Below, piece by piece: positions 35,729 to 50,617 of a DNA stretch of 64,000 nt (its first letter is position 1; each line of letters starts with the position of its first letter). Origin of the DNA: Urechidicola croceus (GTDB lineage Bacteria; Bacteroidota; Bacteroidia; Flavobacteriales; Flavobacteriaceae); assembly GCA_905181865.1 (NCBI GenBank), contig CAJIZG010000003.1, positions 124,001-188,000 of the forward strand, written 5' to 3'. The position numbers and the translations under genes were made by a program. The notes below the pieces were generated by a model. That model did no database searches. It had not been told where the DNA came from and saw only the letters and a list, made by a program, of their open reading frames with translations.

Positions 35729-35944
35729 ATCTGTATTGTTAATTGTTTACAAAAAGTTCCGCGAATTTACGAAATAAAACATCAAATAAAAAGATATTAT
35801 ATTGTCAAATTAACAAGTTTTCGGTTTTAATAATTCTAATCATATATTTTACTATAAATAAAATATTTTCATCAAATATTGTCAATAGTTTAATTAATTA
35901 TACTTGAATCGCTTTGAACTTAGCGCGTTCAACATAAAAAAGAA

Positions 35945-36331
35945 AAAAAGCAGATCTATAAGCCGGATCCTGTATCCACCCATGGCGGACTCTTATCATT
36001 TATCTAGGTTATCAATTACTCAATAACTCAATCTGTCTACCCCTTGAAATCGAGTGAGTACTCTTAGTTAATAAAAATTAACACTCCAATATACGTGACA
36101 TTGCACCGCATAGAGTTTACCTGGTTTCACTACAGCCGAACTGTACTTGCTTTCTGTTGCACTTGTCCTATTCGCTTTGCAACGAACGACGGATGTTATC
36201 CGCTATGCTACTCTATGGTGTCCGGACTTTCCTCCTTGTACCAAACTCAATTTGGAATCTTTTAAAATATTGCTATTATTAAAAAATACTGAGAATAAGT
36301 TCAGCACACGGCGATAAGACGATCTGCTTTT
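35945..36331 (-). ncRNA. rnpB: RNase P RNA (class A)
   Basis: The minus strand contains GGAGGAAAGTCCGGACACC, the hallmark P4/CR1 segment, ACAGTTCGGCTGTAGTGAAA in the middle, and the 3' element GGATCCGGCTTATAGATCTG. The 5' GCAGATCG and the 3' GATCTGC pair to form P1, which defines both ends. A T-rich run follows (35945 and below). It processes the 5' leader of tRNAs. The whole 35729-36462 gap is explained by this RNA plus its promoter and the dnaJ terminator. Confidence 0.96.
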
Positions 36332-44126: not shown

Positions 44127-44648
44127 ATGGAAGACATTATTTTTGACCTAATCCCATATATTATTCCATCTATTATAACTGGGTTTGTCTCCTATTATTT
44201 TTTTAACACCTATGTCCAAAGTGAAAATAGACGGCAAAAAATAGAGTTGATTCGCGATAGAAAAAAAGAAATACTTCCCATAAGATTGCAAGCTTACGAG
44301 CGTCTAACGTTGTTTATGGAACGTATCAGTCCTTCAAAATTAGTACTTCGAATTACACCTACATCTGATGATATAGAGCTCTATGTTCAAAAATTGCTTA
44401 TTAGCATAGAACAAGAATTCGAACACAATCTTTCACAACAGATCTATGTTTCAGAATCTTGCTGGAATGCATTAATTGCTTCTAAAAATGCAACGCGAAA
44501 CTTGATCATCTCTAGTTCTAAAGAACCTAAATTATTTGATGCTAATCAATTGAGAGAAAATATTCTAAAAAAGATGACTGACACCAACCCACCTTCTAAT
44601 ACAGGCATGGCTTTCATAAAAGAAGAAGTGAAAGAATTGTATTTATAA
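44127..44648 (+). CDS. Small membrane-anchored protein of unknown function
   Basis: 173 residues. One N-terminal membrane helix (IPYIIPSIITGFVSYYFF) is followed by a soluble charged helical domain (QKIELIRDRKKEILPIRLQA, YERLTLFMERISPSKLVLRI) with likely coiled coil. The ILPIRLQAYERL stretch looks conserved from other flavobacteria, but I know no function. Orientation in the membrane is probably N-out, domain in the cytoplasm. It ends just before the riboswitch-led operon. Confidence 0.7.
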   Translation: MEDIIFDLIPYIIPSIITGFVSYYFFNTYVQSENRRQKIELIRDRKKEILPIRLQAYERLTLFMERISPSKLVLRITPTSDDIELYVQKLLISIEQEFEHNLSQQIYVSESCWNALIASKNATRNLIISSSKEPKLFDANQLRENILKKMTDTNPPSNTGMAFIKEEVKELYL

Positions 44649-44673
44649 TCACTTATATTTTGTAGTTTCGCAC

Positions 44674-44846
44674 CGATTTTGGTACTGTTTTTCATTACTG
44701 AAGAATAGTTTAAAAGGGAATCTAGTGTAAATCTAGAACTATACCCGTAGCTGTAAACTCTTTACAACTTTTAACAAACTTGATCCACTGTTCGCGAATG
44801 GCGTATGGGAAGGAAGTTAAAAGTAGAGTAAGTCAGAAGACCTGCC
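44674..44846 (+). promoter_or_regulatory. Cobalamin (B12) riboswitch
   Basis: Standard landmarks appear in order: TTTTGGTACTG, AAAAGGGAATCTAGTGTAAA, CCCGTAGCTGTAA, a CCACTG B12-box element, TATGGGAAGGAAGTTAAAAG, and AGTCAGAAGACCTGCC at the 3' end. It precedes the TonB receptor start by about 140 bp, leaving room for an expression platform; the segment 44860-44890 (TTTCGGGTGAAAAGTTATG) is part of it. High adenosylcobalamin is expected to shut the operon. A TATATTTTG-like -7 box lies just upstream (44654). No other gene lies in 44649-44982. Confidence 0.95.
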
Positions 44847-44982
44847 CTTATCCATGTATAATCTGAACTTTCGGGTGAAAAGTTATGACGTACAAGATAG
44901 CAGTCTATGACGATAGTCTTCATATTTTGTGTTTTATTATTCTCTCAGGGTTCAAAATATTTAATCATTAAAATAAATAATT

Positions 44983-46878
44983 TTGAACAAAAAAACATTT
45001 TTAATTGGCTGTGCGGCTCTATTCACTGCAACAATTTCAGCACAACAAACAACTGACAAAGCAATTGATTCAACAAAAGTGAATTTATTGAGTGAGGCAG
45101 TGGTCTCTGGAACTCGATTTAAAGTTCCCGTCAAAAAATCTGGTAAAACTATTTACAAAATCTCTTCAGAACAAATTGAAAAAAATGCAGGTAAAACTGT
45201 TGTAGATATTTTAAATGAAGTTCCGGGAGTACAAATGGAAGGACAATATGGCTCTCCTGGTACAAATATCAGTTATTTTGTTAGAGGTGGACGAAATAAA
45301 AATACTTTAATTTTAATAGACGGGGTTCCACTAAATGATCCTTCAGGAATTAATGCTTCTTTTGATTTACGCTTGCTTTCATTAAGCCAAGTTGAATCTA
45401 TAGAGGTTTTAAAGGGTAGTTTGAGTACCTTATATGGAACAGGGGCATCTTCTTCGGTAATCAATATAAAACTCAAAGAAAGTACCGCAGATCCCAAAGG
45501 AACCTTAAACTCAAACTTTGGTTCTTACAGCACTGTTAATACGAACGTAAATCTTTCTGATAGAATTGAAAAATTTTCATATTTCATTTCAGGAAATTAT
45601 AGCGTTTCAGAGGGGTTTTCTTCCGCTTCTGACGAGAACTCGCCAACTCCATTTGGAGATGATGGCTTTACGCAAAAAAACAGCTTACTGAAATTTGGGT
45701 ACGATTTTTCTGACCGCTTTAAAGTACTGGTTACAGGAGGATATGATGAATTTGAAACAGAATATGACGATTCTGGTTTTACGGATGGTGAAAATATCCA
45801 AAAAGGAAAATTAAAAAGATTCGGAATACTTCCTTCTTATAAATATAATACGGGAGAAATTAAATTAAACGCTTTATATATAAATAATGAACGTGAATTT
45901 ATTTCTTCATTTCCAGCAACTTATACAGGAAATAATATGCAACTCGATTTAACCAACAGACATAATTTTAATGAAACGATTACGCTTTTGTCAGGTTTAA
46001 ATTATCAGGATTTATCCTATAAAGAAGGAGCGTCATCTGACTATAGCGATACGCAATTCCAAATATTTGACCCATATACTTCATTGTTTTTAGATTATAA
46101 TTTCGGATTGAATGTACACGCCGGTGCTAGATTAAATACGCATAGCGTATATGGATCAAAATTTGTTTATAACCTTAATCCTAGTTATACTTTTGATGTT
46201 GCTGAACAATCTAAACTGAAATTTATTGTAGCTGCTTCAACCTCTTATATCACTCCAACCGGATATCAATTATTTTCAGATTCTGGAAATCGTAATTTAA
46301 ATCCAGAGGAATCTCTAAATTTAGAAGTTGGTTTTTCATATTACGCAGGAAAAAAATTTACATTCAATGCTGCTGCATTCAAACGCTATGAAGAAAATGC
46401 AATTGGGTATGAGTCTAAATATGACGGTCAAGGAAATTGGATCGGAGGGCAATATCAAAATATTGAGGGAGAACGCATCGTTGAAGGTGTAGAAATTGAC
46501 TTTACCCATATATTTTCAAAAAGTTTTAACTTAAGAGGTAATTACACATATGCAAATACTGAAGATGTATCGACTTTCTATAGAATTCCGAAACAAACTT
46601 TTGGTTTAGGCGCTACCATTAATCCGTCAGAAAACACTTCTGTTACTATTAAATATAACTTTACTGGAAGTCGAACGATTTTTGATTTTGGAAGTTCTAG
46701 TGAAATTATTTTAGCAGATTATGGTTTATTAGATCTATATGCGCAACAAAAAATTTATAAGAATAAGGTGACGCTTTATGGTGCTATTAATAATCTTTTA
46801 GACAAAGACTTTGTGAGTGTCTATGGTTACACCACTCGAGGTATAAATTATAATATCGGATTGAATTATAATTTCTAA
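44983..46878 (+). CDS. btuB: TonB-dependent outer-membrane receptor, B12-type (BtuB-like)
   Basis: 631 residues starting at TTG 44983. Signal peptide (KTFLIGCAALFTATISAQQ), plug domain (EQIEKNAGKTVVDILNEVPG then YFVRGGRNKNTLILIDGVPL and LSTLYGTGASSSVINI), and a 22-strand barrel ending in the aromatic YNIGLNYNF. No carboxypeptidase-like SusC N-domain, so it is a nutrient receptor of the classical type. The cobalamin riboswitch upstream and BtuF-like gene downstream indicate cobalamin/corrinoid uptake. The TTG start is supported by the signal sequence and by the absence of a nearby ATG. Confidence 0.92.
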   Translation: MNKKTFLIGCAALFTATISAQQTTDKAIDSTKVNLLSEAVVSGTRFKVPVKKSGKTIYKISSEQIEKNAGKTVVDILNEVPGVQMEGQYGSPGTNISYFVRGGRNKNTLILIDGVPLNDPSGINASFDLRLLSLSQVESIEVLKGSLSTLYGTGASSSVINIKLKESTADPKGTLNSNFGSYSTVNTNVNLSDRIEKFSYFISGNYSVSEGFSSASDENSPTPFGDDGFTQKNSLLKFGYDFSDRFKVLVTGGYDEFETEYDDSGFTDGENIQKGKLKRFGILPSYKYNTGEIKLNALYINNEREFISSFPATYTGNNMQLDLTNRHNFNETITLLSGLNYQDLSYKEGASSDYSDTQFQIFDPYTSLFLDYNFGLNVHAGARLNTHSVYGSKFVYNLNPSYTFDVAEQSKLKFIVAASTSYITPTGYQLFSDSGNRNLNPEESLNLEVGFSYYAGKKFTFNAAAFKRYEENAIGYESKYDGQGNWIGGQYQNIEGERIVEGVEIDFTHIFSKSFNLRGNYTYANTEDVSTFYRIPKQTFGLGATINPSENTSVTIKYNFTGSRTIFDFGSSSEIILADYGLLDLYAQQKIYKNKVTLYGAINNLLDKDFVSVYGYTTRGINYNIGLNYNF

Positions 46879-46897
46879 AATTTCAAATTAGAATATT

Positions 46898-47635
46898 ATG
46901 AAAATAAAAAAGACTAGGGCAATATTTAACTGGAGCGGAGGAAAAGATAGCGCCCTAGCTCTTTATTATATTCTAAAAGCCGATGAATTTGAGATCACAA
47001 ATTTAGTCACTACAGTGAATTCTATATACGATCGAATTTCGATGCATGGTGTACGGAAAGAATTGCTTTATGCGCAAGGAGAAGAAATTGGACTTCCTAT
47101 AAAAGAAATTCGATTGCCAGAAATGCCTTCTATGTCTGATTATGACAATATCATGAAAAAGGAACTTTCACCATTAAAAAATGACGGGATTACTCATAGT
47201 ATTTTTGGTGATATCTTTTTGGAAGACCTAAGAGATTATCGCGTTAAAAAATTAAGTGAAGTCGGATTAAAAGGATATTTTCCCCTTTGGAAAAGAGATA
47301 CCACAGAATTAGTAAGAGCGTTTATTAAACTCGGATTTAAAACTATAGTGGTTTGTGTAAAATCAGAATTATTGGACAAGAATTTTGCTGGTCGCGTTAT
47401 TGATGAAGATTTTTTAAACGATTTACCAGAAGGAATTGACCCATGTGGAGAAAATGGCGAATTTCATACTTTTGTTTTTGATGGACCTATTTTTAAGAAT
47501 CCAATTAAATTTGAAATCGGAGAAACGATATTTAAAGAATATAAAGCACCGAAAAATTCAGAGGATATCTGCAATAATAGTACATCTAAACCCAAATCTT
47601 CTGGATTTTACTTTTGTGATTTAATACCTAAATAA
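46898..47635 (+). CDS. Dph6-like PP-loop ATP pyrophosphatase, copy 1
   Basis: 245 residues. PP-loop SGGKDSALAL near residue 15 binds ATP; IFGDIFLEDLRDYR near 105 and the PCGENGEFHTFVFDGP segment near 182 are the diphthine-ammonia-ligase (Dph6) pattern, in which an acid is adenylated and then amidated. Bacteria have no diphthamide, so the substrate differs. The position between btuB and a BtuF-like gene under a B12 riboswitch points to corrinoid or adenosyl-nucleotide chemistry. It starts 19 bp after btuB and ends 3 bp before a paralogue. The C-terminal 30 residues are unique to this copy. Confidence 0.88.
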   Translation: MKIKKTRAIFNWSGGKDSALALYYILKADEFEITNLVTTVNSIYDRISMHGVRKELLYAQGEEIGLPIKEIRLPEMPSMSDYDNIMKKELSPLKNDGITHSIFGDIFLEDLRDYRVKKLSEVGLKGYFPLWKRDTTELVRAFIKLGFKTIVVCVKSELLDKNFAGRVIDEDFLNDLPEGIDPCGENGEFHTFVFDGPIFKNPIKFEIGETIFKEYKAPKNSEDICNNSTSKPKSSGFYFCDLIPK

Positions 47636-47638
47636 TAT

Positions 47639-48286
47639 ATGAAATTATTATGCTCATGGAGTGGTGGAAAAGATAGTTGCTATGCATTAATGCTACTAAC
47701 ACAGCAAGGCTATGAACTGAAAATATTGCTAAATATGATGAATGAAAACGAGCAAGTTTCTCGTTCTCATGGACTGTCTTTATCTATTTTAAATCAGCAA
47801 TCAAAAGCATTAAACGCTCCATTAAAAGGAATTCCAAGTACTTGGGCTGATTACGAAGAAAACTATATTAAAGCTTTACGTCATCTAAAAACGGCGTTTG
47901 ATATTGAATCGGTTGCGTTTGGAGATATTGATCTTGAATCTCATAGAGAATGGGAAGAAAAAGTATGTGATGCGGCTCAACTAAAGCCGCTCCTGCCCTT
48001 ATGGAAACAAAATAGAAAGCAATTGGTTTACGACATGATTGATCACGGAATTAAAGCCATAATCGTTTCCTGCGATAAGGAATTACTGGGAGAATCTTTC
48101 CTAGGTAGAGAGATTACAAAAGATTTGGTAAAAGAATTGGAAGATATAGGAGTTGACGCCTGCGGAGAAAATGGTGAATACCATACCGTTGTTCTTGATT
48201 GTCCTCTTTTTGCATCTCCTATTCAACTTCCCGAATTCAAAAAAAAAAGTCATCAAAATTATTGTTTCCTTACTTGGAATTTATAA
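47639..48286 (+). CDS. Dph6-like PP-loop ATP pyrophosphatase, copy 2
   Basis: 215 residues with SGGKDSCYALMLL near residue 10, SVAFGDIDLESHREWEEKVC near 98 and the CGENGEYHTVVLDCP segment near 175, so both ATP-binding and amidation motifs are intact. It differs widely from copy 1 (for example the RSHGLSLSILNQQSKALNAP segment against the HGVRKELLYAQGEEIG one), so the two are old paralogues rather than a fresh duplication. It is 3 bp after copy 1 and 20 bp before the BtuF-like gene, in one operon. Substrate unknown. Confidence 0.88.
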   Translation: MKLLCSWSGGKDSCYALMLLTQQGYELKILLNMMNENEQVSRSHGLSLSILNQQSKALNAPLKGIPSTWADYEENYIKALRHLKTAFDIESVAFGDIDLESHREWEEKVCDAAQLKPLLPLWKQNRKQLVYDMIDHGIKAIIVSCDKELLGESFLGREITKDLVKELEDIGVDACGENGEYHTVVLDCPLFASPIQLPEFKKKSHQNYCFLTWNL

Positions 48287-48306
48287 AAGAGAAATAGATT
48301 GTGTAA

Positions 48307-49455
48307 ATGAAAAAATTAAATCTAACAAATACCGTTTTACTCCTTATCGTGGCTTTTTTTATTTTGTCATGCAATTCTAACACAAATAAAAATCGGAAAA
48401 AATATATTGAATCTAAAACTTCAGTTAAATACGCTAAAGGGTTTGATATTCAAGATTTTGATACTATTATAAAACTCACTATAAATAAACCTTATCAAGG
48501 TGCTAACTCCCAACATGAATATATTTTAGTGCGAAATCGTTTTGACACTCCTACTTTAAAAGTTACAAAAAACATAATTCAAATTCCTGTCAAAAAAGTC
48601 ATCGCTACGAGTACAACTCATATCCCGATGATAGAAGCCTTAGAAGAAGAGAACTCTTTAATTGGCTTTCCCAATACAAACTATATCTCTTCAAAGAAAA
48701 CAAGGAAATTAATTGACAAAGGGGTTATTCAAGAAATTGGGATGGATGCTAATTTGAATACTGAAATTGTCATAGACTTAAATCCTGATCTGATTATTGG
48801 TTTTTCGGTAAATGGTACTAATAAATCATTAGAAACCTTAAAAAGAGGTGGTATTTCTATTATTTACAATGGCGCATGGCTGGAAGAAACCCCTTTAGGA
48901 CGTGCCGAATGGTTAAAGTTTTTCGGAGTTCTTTATGATAAAAAAGAAATGGCAGATTCGATTTTTAATGAAATTGAAAAAAATTACCTTGAAATTAAAA
49001 GTATTGCCTCAAAAAAAGATCAGAAGCCCACGATATTGTCTGGCGCCATGTTTAAAGATGTTTGGAATATTCCTGCGGGAGATAGTTTTATGGCACATTT
49101 TTTTAAAGATGCAAACACAAATTATTTATGGAAAGACACCAAGGGTACTGGAAGTCTTCAATTAAATTTTGAAAATATTTTAGATACAGGACAACAAGCT
49201 GATTTATGGATTGGCCCAGGATCTTTTACAACGAAGGAAGATTTATTCAATTCAAATCCACATTACGCTAATTTCAAAGCTTTTAAATCAGGTAATATCT
49301 ATACATTCTCTAAAAAGAAAGGAGCCACTGGCGGCATCGTTTATTATGAATTGGGCGCATTAAGACCTGATTTAATTTTAAAGGATATCATAAAAATTTC
49401 ATATCCAGATTTATTGAAAAATGAGCCGTTTTCTTTTTTCGATACAGTGAAATAG
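48307..49455 (+). CDS. btuF: BtuF-like periplasmic cobalamin-binding lipoprotein
   Basis: 382 residues. Lipobox FILSCN (Cys22) after a hydrophobic signal. The class-III binding-protein fold shows in VIATSTTHIPMIEALEEEN near 99, GMDANLNTEIVIDLNPDLII near 148 and GGIVYYELGALRPDLILKDI near 345. The long N-terminal part up to about residue 95 is unusual for BtuF. No BtuC or BtuD gene follows; the next gene is argE on the other strand, 4 bp away, so the permease and ATPase must be elsewhere. Cobalamin as ligand is inferred from the riboswitch operon. Confidence 0.85.
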   Translation: MKKLNLTNTVLLLIVAFFILSCNSNTNKNRKKYIESKTSVKYAKGFDIQDFDTIIKLTINKPYQGANSQHEYILVRNRFDTPTLKVTKNIIQIPVKKVIATSTTHIPMIEALEEENSLIGFPNTNYISSKKTRKLIDKGVIQEIGMDANLNTEIVIDLNPDLIIGFSVNGTNKSLETLKRGGISIIYNGAWLEETPLGRAEWLKFFGVLYDKKEMADSIFNEIEKNYLEIKSIASKKDQKPTILSGAMFKDVWNIPAGDSFMAHFFKDANTNYLWKDTKGTGSLQLNFENILDTGQQADLWIGPGSFTTKEDLFNSNPHYANFKAFKSGNIYTFSKKKGATGGIVYYELGALRPDLILKDIIKISYPDLLKNEPFSFFDTVK

Positions 49456-49459
49456 ATGG

Positions 49460-50617
49460 TCATTGGGAACTTAATTCTCGTACCAAATTCCGTATCATCT
49501 CTACCCCATTTTGCAATTGATCTATTGAGATATATTCATTAGCCCTATGCGCTTGAGCAATAGAACCAGGCCCGCAAATAACACTTTCATAACCTCCCTC
49601 AGCAAATTGACCTGCTTCTGAAGCATAGGATACCGTAGCTGCTTCGTTATTCCCTGTAATTCGTTTGACGAGACCTACAATTGGAGAACTCTCATCCGTA
49701 TTTAGCGCAGGTACAGGTGGATGTTCATCTGTAGTACGTATTTTAAAATCTTTAAATACTTTTCCTTTTTCTAATTCTAATTCGTCACAAAATGCTCTAA
49801 ATTCATTGACTATGTGCAAAACGTCATCCTGAGGAATAACTCTAACATCCCAATAGAATGTAGCCTTATCAGCAATAATGTTAGGTGCAATTCCAGCTTC
49901 AATTCGACCGATATGAATCGAAGTATGTGATGGGTTAAAGCGCTTATCAATATGACCATTAGCAACCAGTTGATTCATTTTATTTTCCAACCACAAAATC
50001 AATCGTGCAGATTCATGAATAGCACTTACCTCTTGCCTAATTCTACTACTATGCCCCGAAGAACCAGTAACAACCGTTTTCAATACGTAAATTCCCTTTT
50101 GTCCAACAATAGGCAGTAATAACGAGGGTTCCCCTATTAGTGCATATTTCGGAGTTTCATTAAAAGTTGCTTTAATTTGATTAACCATATTCTCGCCTTC
50201 CAAACAACCGATTTCTTCATCAAATGAAAACGCAAAATAAATAGGCTTTTTCAAATTCGCTTTTTGCATCTCTGAAACATTAGCCAAACAAGTTGCCAAA
50301 AACCCCTTCATATCACAGGATCCTCTCGCATATAAATTCCCATCTCCTTTATCTATCAATTCAAAAGGGTTTGTATCCCATTCTTGCCCTTTAACGGGTA
50401 CGACATCCATATGCCCCGAAAGGATGACCCCTCCGTCTATGGATGGACCAATTCGACAATGAATAGAAGCCTTCGTTCCTTCTTCATTTAAAAAGCGATA
50501 TACTTTAACACCCTTAGACTCTAAATACGTCTGAATCCAATTTGCAATAGACAGATTACTTTCTCCTCCCAATACAGGAAATGAAACTAATTTGGCAAGA
50601 ATTTGAGTAGCAGTCAT
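49460..50617 (-). CDS. argE: Acetylornithine deacetylase-like M20 peptidase
   Basis: 385 residues with the M20 metal-binding pattern: SGHMDVVPVKGQEWDTNPF near 67 (His-x-Asp), ARGSCDMKGFLA near 93, FSFDEEIGCLEG near 130 (catalytic Glu-Glu), a GEPS loop near 158, and the final His in CGPGSIAQAHRANEYIS near 355. The WDTNPF and CDMKGF pieces point to ArgE among M20 enzymes, which removes the N-acyl group in arginine synthesis. No other arg gene is near. It converges with the B12 operon with no terminator between them. Confidence 0.85.
   Translation of the reverse strand: MTATQILAKLVSFPVLGGESNLSIANWIQTYLESKGVKVYRFLNEEGTKASIHCRIGPSIDGGVILSGHMDVVPVKGQEWDTNPFELIDKGDGNLYARGSCDMKGFLATCLANVSEMQKANLKKPIYFAFSFDEEIGCLEGENMVNQIKATFNETPKYALIGEPSLLLPIVGQKGIYVLKTVVTGSSGHSSRIRQEVSAIHESARLILWLENKMNQLVANGHIDKRFNPSHTSIHIGRIEAGIAPNIIADKATFYWDVRVIPQDDVLHIVNEFRAFCDELELEKGKVFKDFKIRTTDEHPPVPALNTDESSPIVGLVKRITGNNEAATVSYASEAGQFAEGGYESVICGPGSIAQAHRANEYISIDQLQNGVEMIRNLVRELSSQ

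Follow-up and report, generated by a model that had tools for sequence, protein, structure and literature searches.

Two DUF71-B12 paralogs in a riboswitch-led cobalamin uptake operon of Urechidicola croceus: candidate corrinoid-modifying enzymes

We analysed a 64,000-nucleotide stretch of Urechidicola croceus DNA (Flavobacteriaceae; contig CAJIZG010000003.1, positions 124,001 to 188,000 of the forward strand), below called the window. It contains a cobalamin (B12) riboswitch followed by four genes on the same strand, two of which code for PP-loop ATPases of the family PF01902 (Diphthami_syn_2/DUF71), here named type A and type B. In window coordinates the features are as follows (aa, amino acids):

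44663-44863, + strand: cobalamin riboswitch aptamer RF00174; full-length match with a covariance score of 97.2 bits (gathering threshold 31.5), E 5.3e-23
44983-46878, + strand: BtuB-like TonB-dependent receptor, 631 aa, TTG start; matches to TIGR01779 and Plug PF07715
46898-47635, + strand: DUF71 type A, PP-loop ATPase, 245 aa; PF01902 at 141.3 bits, E 4.3e-41; motifs SGGKDS and CGENGEFHT
47639-48286, + strand: DUF71 type B, PP-loop ATPase, 215 aa; PF01902 at 164.3 bits, E 3.9e-48; motifs SGGKDS and CGENGEYHT
48307-49455, + strand: BtuF-like periplasmic-binding lipoprotein, 382 aa; Peripla_BP_2 PF01497 at 91.5 bits (cut-off 27.5), E 7.1e-26

A riboswitch, a TonB receptor, two PP-loop genes and a BtuF-like lipoprotein had been predicted at this site from the DNA letters, and searches with RF00174, TIGR01779/PF07715, PF01902 and PF01497 confirmed all of them together with the SGGKDS and CGENGE[FY]HT motifs of both DUF71 proteins. 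The close spacing was borne out as well, with gaps of 19, 3 and 20 bases, but the start placed at 44674 has to be moved, as the riboswitch begins 11 bases earlier. The next gene (49460-50617) lies on the opposite strand, and no terminator-like site was found in 44400-49700. The RF00174 match is the sole cobalamin riboswitch detected in a scan of the whole genome with stricter filters (G000; labels with G denote genomes, those with L fetched loci). Likewise, A and B, both of which pass the PF01902 cut-off of 23.2 bits, are the only two PF01902 genes that a genome search found, and they are the sole non-transport genes of the riboswitch-led run.

The names of the two flanking proteins rest on sub-cut-off NCBIfam similarity plus clustering with related loci, and are meant as putative. 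The receptor matches the model for TonB-dependent B12 receptors, TIGR01779, with E 3.9e-62 and 210.7 bits, under the curated cut-off of 599.7, and clusters with the receptors of 19 other fetched loci. The sole NCBIfam match of the binding lipoprotein is to a heme-binding model, far under the cut-off; we call it BtuF because it clusters with the BtuF proteins from 18 other loci, and btuC is present in 17 of these. The whole unit thus named is best read as a riboswitch-led B12 (cobamide) uptake operon that carries two DUF71-B12 paralogs of the N-type ATP pyrophosphatases.

The B12 link of this DUF71 branch is a rediscovery, mostly published in 2012. De Crecy-Lagard et al. (PMC3541065, cited throughout from part of its text) split DUF71/COG2102 into Dph6, which amidates a carboxylate at the expense of ATP, and a bacterial DUF71-B12 subgroup defined by ENGE[FY]H in place of the Dph6 sequence EGG[ED]xE188, of which E188 is the predicted catalytic residue. 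In that survey 75 of 102 DUF71-B12 genes adjoin B12 transporter genes and 18 of 102 adjoin cbiB. The authors suggested a CbiZ-like role in the salvage of pseudo-B12, on the basis that genomes with CbiB have, with few exceptions, CbiZ or DUF71-B12, leaving the idea to be tested. In a table from 2016 (PMC5041015, cited in part) the group is still entered under 'function unknown, B12 salvage', and we found no later experimental test of the prediction in the open-access literature. The association with B12 that the original prediction had drawn stands, both on the riboswitch-led run with its uptake genes and on the published link of the branch.

In order to place A and B, 120 genomes from the window's family were searched with the PF01902 profile (the family sample), and 48 of them gave matches. 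The 53 clustered proteins are of two kinds, 46 longer ones (type A) and 7 shorter ones (type B); a fragment in G014 (24.6 bits, 2 stops) is outside these 53, yet its genome is counted among the 48. For type B we added a wider set, the best 80 of 169 confirmed relatives from a genome scan, with 18 of the 80 loci fetched incomplete. PF01902 counts refer to these two samples and are not phylum-wide, and open reading frames below 90 aa were not called in the fetched loci of either.

A tree of 87 proteins is split by a branch with support 100 into 35 type B and 52 type A proteins; it was built with a quick method, its root serves for drawing only, and it leaves out L146 (a type A protein of at most 150 aa) as well as 52 type B proteins from the 80 wider loci. 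The window proteins stand on opposite sides of this branch. Window A forms a group of support 91 with three more type A proteins, each from a btu locus, and has its top identity, 61%, to a protein of a Kordia metagenome-assembled genome (MAG; L092); window B shares its side with 34 other type B proteins, and its highest identity, 69%, is to a protein from a groundwater MAG of Flavobacteriia (L083). A recent tandem duplication was rejected since this branch divides the two. Judged by their sequences, A and B are two anciently separated subfamilies and not interchangeable copies.

Both window proteins keep the histidine of GExGE[FY]H[TS], as residue 190 in A and 182 in B. So do 53 of 53 family proteins and every one of the 87 labelled DUF71 proteins of the wider loci, while a few type A proteins vary at two other motif positions. 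Aligned with known structures, window B shows GENGEYHT opposite the GEGGEFET of 2d13 and 3rjz. AlphaFold models with a mean predicted local distance difference test score (pLDDT) of 86.4 for A and 96.0 for B resemble PF0828/PH1257 and 2d13/3rk1, respectively, and Foldseek matched them to the Pyrococcus proteins PF0828/PH1257 with E down to 1.7e-18 at 26-29% identity. By PF01902 score, ENGE[FY]H motif and B12-transport neighbourhood both proteins belong to DUF71-B12, and the histidine instead of E188 supports the earlier placement in a bacterial, non-diphthamide branch of the Dph6 family. One type B sequence lies within a single 385-aa frame (L145:6485-7639), possibly a fusion or a frame or start artefact; neighbours of it carry a separate upstream RNase H gene.

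The surroundings of type B are rich in B12 genes. All 7 type B loci of the family sample contain btu genes, as do 47 of the 80 wider loci, with 44 of 45 among the Flavobacteriaceae. At least three of cobU, cobT, cobS and the phosphatase gene are present in 43/80 wider loci, and in 28/80 type B stands immediately between cobU and cobT on the same strand; one member of the cob-locus phosphatase cluster (L038) clears the curated cut-off for alpha-ribazole phosphatase. In the family sample CobS occurs in 6 of 7 type B genomes vs 9 of 113 others (p 9e-6; this and all further co-occurrence p values treat genomes as independent and ignore kinship). Counted from the other side, type B is found in 6/15 CobS genomes and, among the 105 genomes without CobS, in G000 alone.

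Loci with both A and B number 7 among the 80 wider ones and 5, the window included, among the 7 type B loci of the family. A single same-strand run with both was found in the window, in a Marinifilum MAG (L116; riboswitch upstream, then btuB, DUF6580, cobU, A, B, cobT) and in the Kordia MAG (L092; A-btuF-cobU-B-cobT-cobS-phosphatase-btuC-btuD). These two runs suggest that the window operon may be a cluster of this kind minus its cob genes.

Several other genes were noted at type B loci. In L083:4568-5161 and L116:5178-5777, btuB behind the riboswitch is followed by a gene with DUF6580 (PF20221), and genes of this cluster also lie beside type B in many Chitinophagaceae, for example at L139:7749-8327; three members were confirmed with Pfam. 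The product may, as a guess, carry B12 or a precursor across the membrane, and a search for literature on DUF6580 found no paper. In L083 a nitroreductase-family gene (PF00881; 7646-8308) sits between type B and cobT; it could be a lower-ligand gene, since BluB, the synthase of 5,6-dimethylbenzimidazole, belongs to the same family. A gene at L098:10246-11304 is one of a cluster found near btuB there and in 9 other type B loci; the tested member carries DUF5074 (PF16819), and the protein might, again as a guess, form a surface propeller like BtuG. The cobS match in the type B locus of G061 is in two pieces, one with stops (G061:C1:631372-632074), and a second, full-length match lies elsewhere in that genome.

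Within the family sample, a position downstream of a riboswitch on its strand turned out to be special to the window. According to the scan with stricter filters, from which the riboswitch positions in family loci were taken, 17 type A family loci have a riboswitch: A lies downstream on the opposite strand in 15, is divergent in one (L041) and is on the same strand in one, the window. Downstream placement on the same strand was seen for 1/46 type A and 1/7 type B family loci, both in the window, and riboswitch control as a general trait was rejected on these counts. The argument that such control makes B12 the simplest reading, advanced in the original prediction, is weakened accordingly. In the wider set, 17 type B loci were scanned, and type B lies downstream of a riboswitch on the same strand in 2 of them (L083, L116). 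Across the family sample a riboswitch is present in 48/48 DUF71 genomes vs 56/72 without DUF71 (p 0.0002), a link that falls to p 0.06 among the 106 genomes of about 2.2 megabases (Mb) or more. The genome G113, from the same genus, has the riboswitch, BtuB and BtuF and no PF01902 match; a synteny comparison through the right-hand neighbour gene of the window gave weak matches in G113.

We next consider what G000 could do with imported corrinoids. By sequence it has genes to import B12 (BtuB-, BtuF-, BtuC- and BtuD-like proteins), adenosylate it (PduO) and use it (MetH and methylmalonyl-CoA mutase). The BtuC- and BtuD-like genes are on another contig and are 61.5% and 50.8% identical to their btu-locus counterparts; MetH is encoded in two separate genes, 331 and 905 aa long (G000:C3:966000-971500, L166). 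G000 is 97.39% complete in six contigs, with a single missed gene possible, and gave no match for CbiB (PF03186; present in 7/120 family genomes), none for a BtuR-type adenosyltransferase and none for CobS (15/120), while CbiZ was found in 0/120 family genomes, G000 included. The window operon has no cobU, cobT, cobS or phosphatase gene; CobU and CobT were sought in the window and one other stretch of G000 only. We also considered A and B as a stand-in for a missing corrinoid adenosyltransferase, and rejected it because PduO is encoded by G000 and by all 48 DUF71 family genomes (vs 61/72 of those without DUF71, p 0.003). For the wider set, genomes of 50 of the 80 loci were submitted to a CbiB search, which was positive in 5 and left 45 without CbiB; none was found in the fetched stretches around 86 type B loci or in the window, in a search that did detect its positive control.

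Type B very probably acts in B12 metabolism in the window operon, and the same is probable for type A. For their product to matter in G000, where CbiB, CobS and CbiZ were not found, A and B should deliver a cobamide that PduO, MetH and the mutase can use directly, unless enzymes of an unknown kind finish it. The evidence in this genome thus points to a nearly complete cobamide as the substrate. Our best guess, held tentatively and with rather less than even confidence, is that A and B carry out ATP-dependent amidation, that is repair, of corrinoid side-chain acids. Corrinoid amides can be lost, giving acid forms; together with the amidation chemistry of Dph6 this makes amide repair the simplest reading for the cob-operon and the cob-less contexts alike. 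At low B12 the operon would be switched on, and A and B would bind ATP and adenylate a carboxylate of the imported corrinoid; ammonia or a different amine would then convert this activated form to the amide. Cobamides with free acid side chains, such as partly hydrolysed B12, would in this way become good cofactors, and two paralogs could serve two side chains or two substrates. The narrower version, in which A and B are two ligases, one per side-chain site, that restore lost amides on scavenged cobamides in bacteria that do not build them, is possible but doubtful. To our knowledge, A and B would be the first B12 amide-repair ligases. If corrinoids are indeed mended, auxotrophic bacteria would be able to draw on damaged forms of B12.

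Several observations weigh against amide repair. The predicted catalytic residue of Dph6, E188, is a histidine throughout the subgroup, so that the reaction may not be amidation. In the family sample, 56 of the 104 riboswitch-bearing genomes, including G113, have no DUF71 gene; the DUF71 enzymes are thus dispensable for riboswitch-linked B12 use. No relevant literature on corrinoid monocarboxylic acids was among the matches listed. Type A is near btu genes in 18/46 family loci and has none in the other 28, and 33 of the 80 wider type B loci lack btu and cob genes (21 Chitinophagaceae, 11 unplaced Bacteroidota and 1 Kordia). A majority of Dph6-like genes outside B12 loci had been named beforehand as the outcome that would speak against a B12 role: this is what was found for type A in the family sample and not for type B. 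In 23 of the 33 type B loci a DUF6580-cluster gene is present, adjoining type B in 20, and six that were scanned (L117, L119, L123, L127, L112, L159) gave no riboswitch. The E188 substitution, type A outside B12 loci and the Chitinophagaceae type B genes without btu or cob neighbours are the chief doubts.

The type A counts lend some weight to a different explanation, in which A and B are not corrinoid enzymes at all and amidate another small molecule or a protein, so that their nearness to btu genes reflects inherited synteny or co-regulation with B12-dependent metabolism. We regard it as unlikely, though worth keeping in mind. Among the 28 btu-less type A loci, 14 contain a gene of the class II dehydroquinase cluster (one cluster member was tested with Pfam), and the riboswitch association that fades without genomes under 2.2 Mb points the same way. 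The B12-locus label of type A (24 tree rows; L034, whose BtuD-cluster ABC-ATPase sits at its outermost end, is not counted as a B12 locus on that account) needs only 4 changes on the tree, which means few events; the tree nevertheless forces at least 3 gains or losses of this label, so the association is not one frozen neighbourhood. Against this explanation, too, the cob operons that contain type B have few other foreign genes, and A and B are alone among transport genes in the riboswitch-led run of the window.

Alternatively, type B could replace CbiB by an ATP-dependent ligation of aminopropanol, or its phosphate, to cobyric acid, feeding CobU-CobT-CobS. The frequent position between cobU and cobT, the 45 of 50 type B genomes without CbiB and a Dph6-type chemistry with another amine would all suit this role. 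We nevertheless consider it improbable: with no CobS found in G000 cobinamide would be useless there, yet the motifs of B are intact, and some type B genomes also have CbiB (5/50 in the wider set, and G019 and G061 among the 7 in the family). Moreover, among the 15 CobS genomes type B shows no significant excess in those without CbiB (4/8 vs 2/7 with it, p 0.61).

Still less probable is an action of A and B on the nucleotide loop of intact cobamides in an undescribed way, such as lower-ligand exchange or activation, for which CbiB would not be needed. Type B does stand beside cobT and cobS in many genomes, and we know of no PP-loop enzyme for nucleotide-loop chemistry, which counts against it. 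Remodelling without CbiZ exists, via CbiR or certain CobS enzymes (PMC7733943, cited in part). Loop processing had been offered as an option in the original prediction and is not favoured here, as CobS, CbiB and CbiZ were not found in G000.

The published proposal, in which DUF71-B12 does the job of CbiZ by cleaving the aminopropanol-linker amide of pseudo-B12, so that CbiB and the loop enzymes can turn the resulting cobyric acid into B12, or else opens a different route of pseudo-B12 salvage, is very unlikely for this operon: the combination of CbiB and CobS in one genome that marks a CbiZ-equivalent system was not found in G000, where cobyric acid would be a dead end, and neither the 45 CbiB-less type B genomes nor the 86 type B loci fit it. 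In its favour, DUF71-B12 and CbiZ were mutually exclusive in the bacteria of the 2012 data, and CbiB genomes mostly had one or the other (PMC3541065). Our family sample leans in the same direction, with DUF71 in 5/7 CbiB genomes (one a broken fragment, in G014) vs 43/113 CbiB-less ones (p 0.11), or CbiB in 5/48 DUF71 genomes vs 2/72 without DUF71 (p 0.11). Two CbiB genomes, G003 (80% complete) and G072, have neither DUF71 nor CbiZ; the absence of CbiZ as such is uninformative in this family because none of the 120 genomes has it. A directly usable product argues, for G000, against both the CbiZ-CbiB route and the replacement of CbiB, and amide repair is consistent with this genome where the published mechanism fits less well, given that CbiB, CobS and CbiZ were not found. 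G000 is a useful test case for this reason, having DUF71-B12 genes while the partner enzymes of the published suggestion were not found.

Elsewhere in the window, an ordinary bacterial class A RNase P RNA was detected at 35943-36330 on the - strand (173.7 bits).

Compared with known systems, the archaeal diphthine-ammonia ligase Dph6 (PF0828: 3RJZ, 3RK0, 3RK1; PH1257: 2D13) shares the fold, the PP-loop and the GExGE motifs with A and B, which differ in the histidine at the E188 position and reach 100.6 and 121.8 bits with TIGR03679, the model of archaeal Dph6, whose curated cut-off is 197.3. CbiZ, the adenosylcobinamide/pseudo-B12 amidohydrolase (PF01955), has in common with DUF71 the suggested role in B12 salvage (PMC3541065); it belongs to another Pfam family, is missing from the family sample, and its partner CbiB was not found in G000. 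The cobU-cobT-cobS-phosphatase operons of Flavobacterium also contain type B, between cobU and cobT, whereas the window operon has both A and B and none of these four genes. New in the present analysis are the A/B pair, the cobU-B-cobT placement and the finding that CbiB was not detected; these weigh against the mechanism proposed in 2012. The closest system is the DUF71-B12 subgroup itself, with the same PF01902 domain, ENGE[FY]H motif, bacterial distribution and B12 transport neighbours; the word 'riboswitch' is absent from the main text of the paper that described it, and the co-occurrence reported there, a correlate and not part of the definition, would predict CbiB in G000, where none was found (PMC3541065). 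What sets the window apart from that subgroup is two separate paralogs in one riboswitch-led run.

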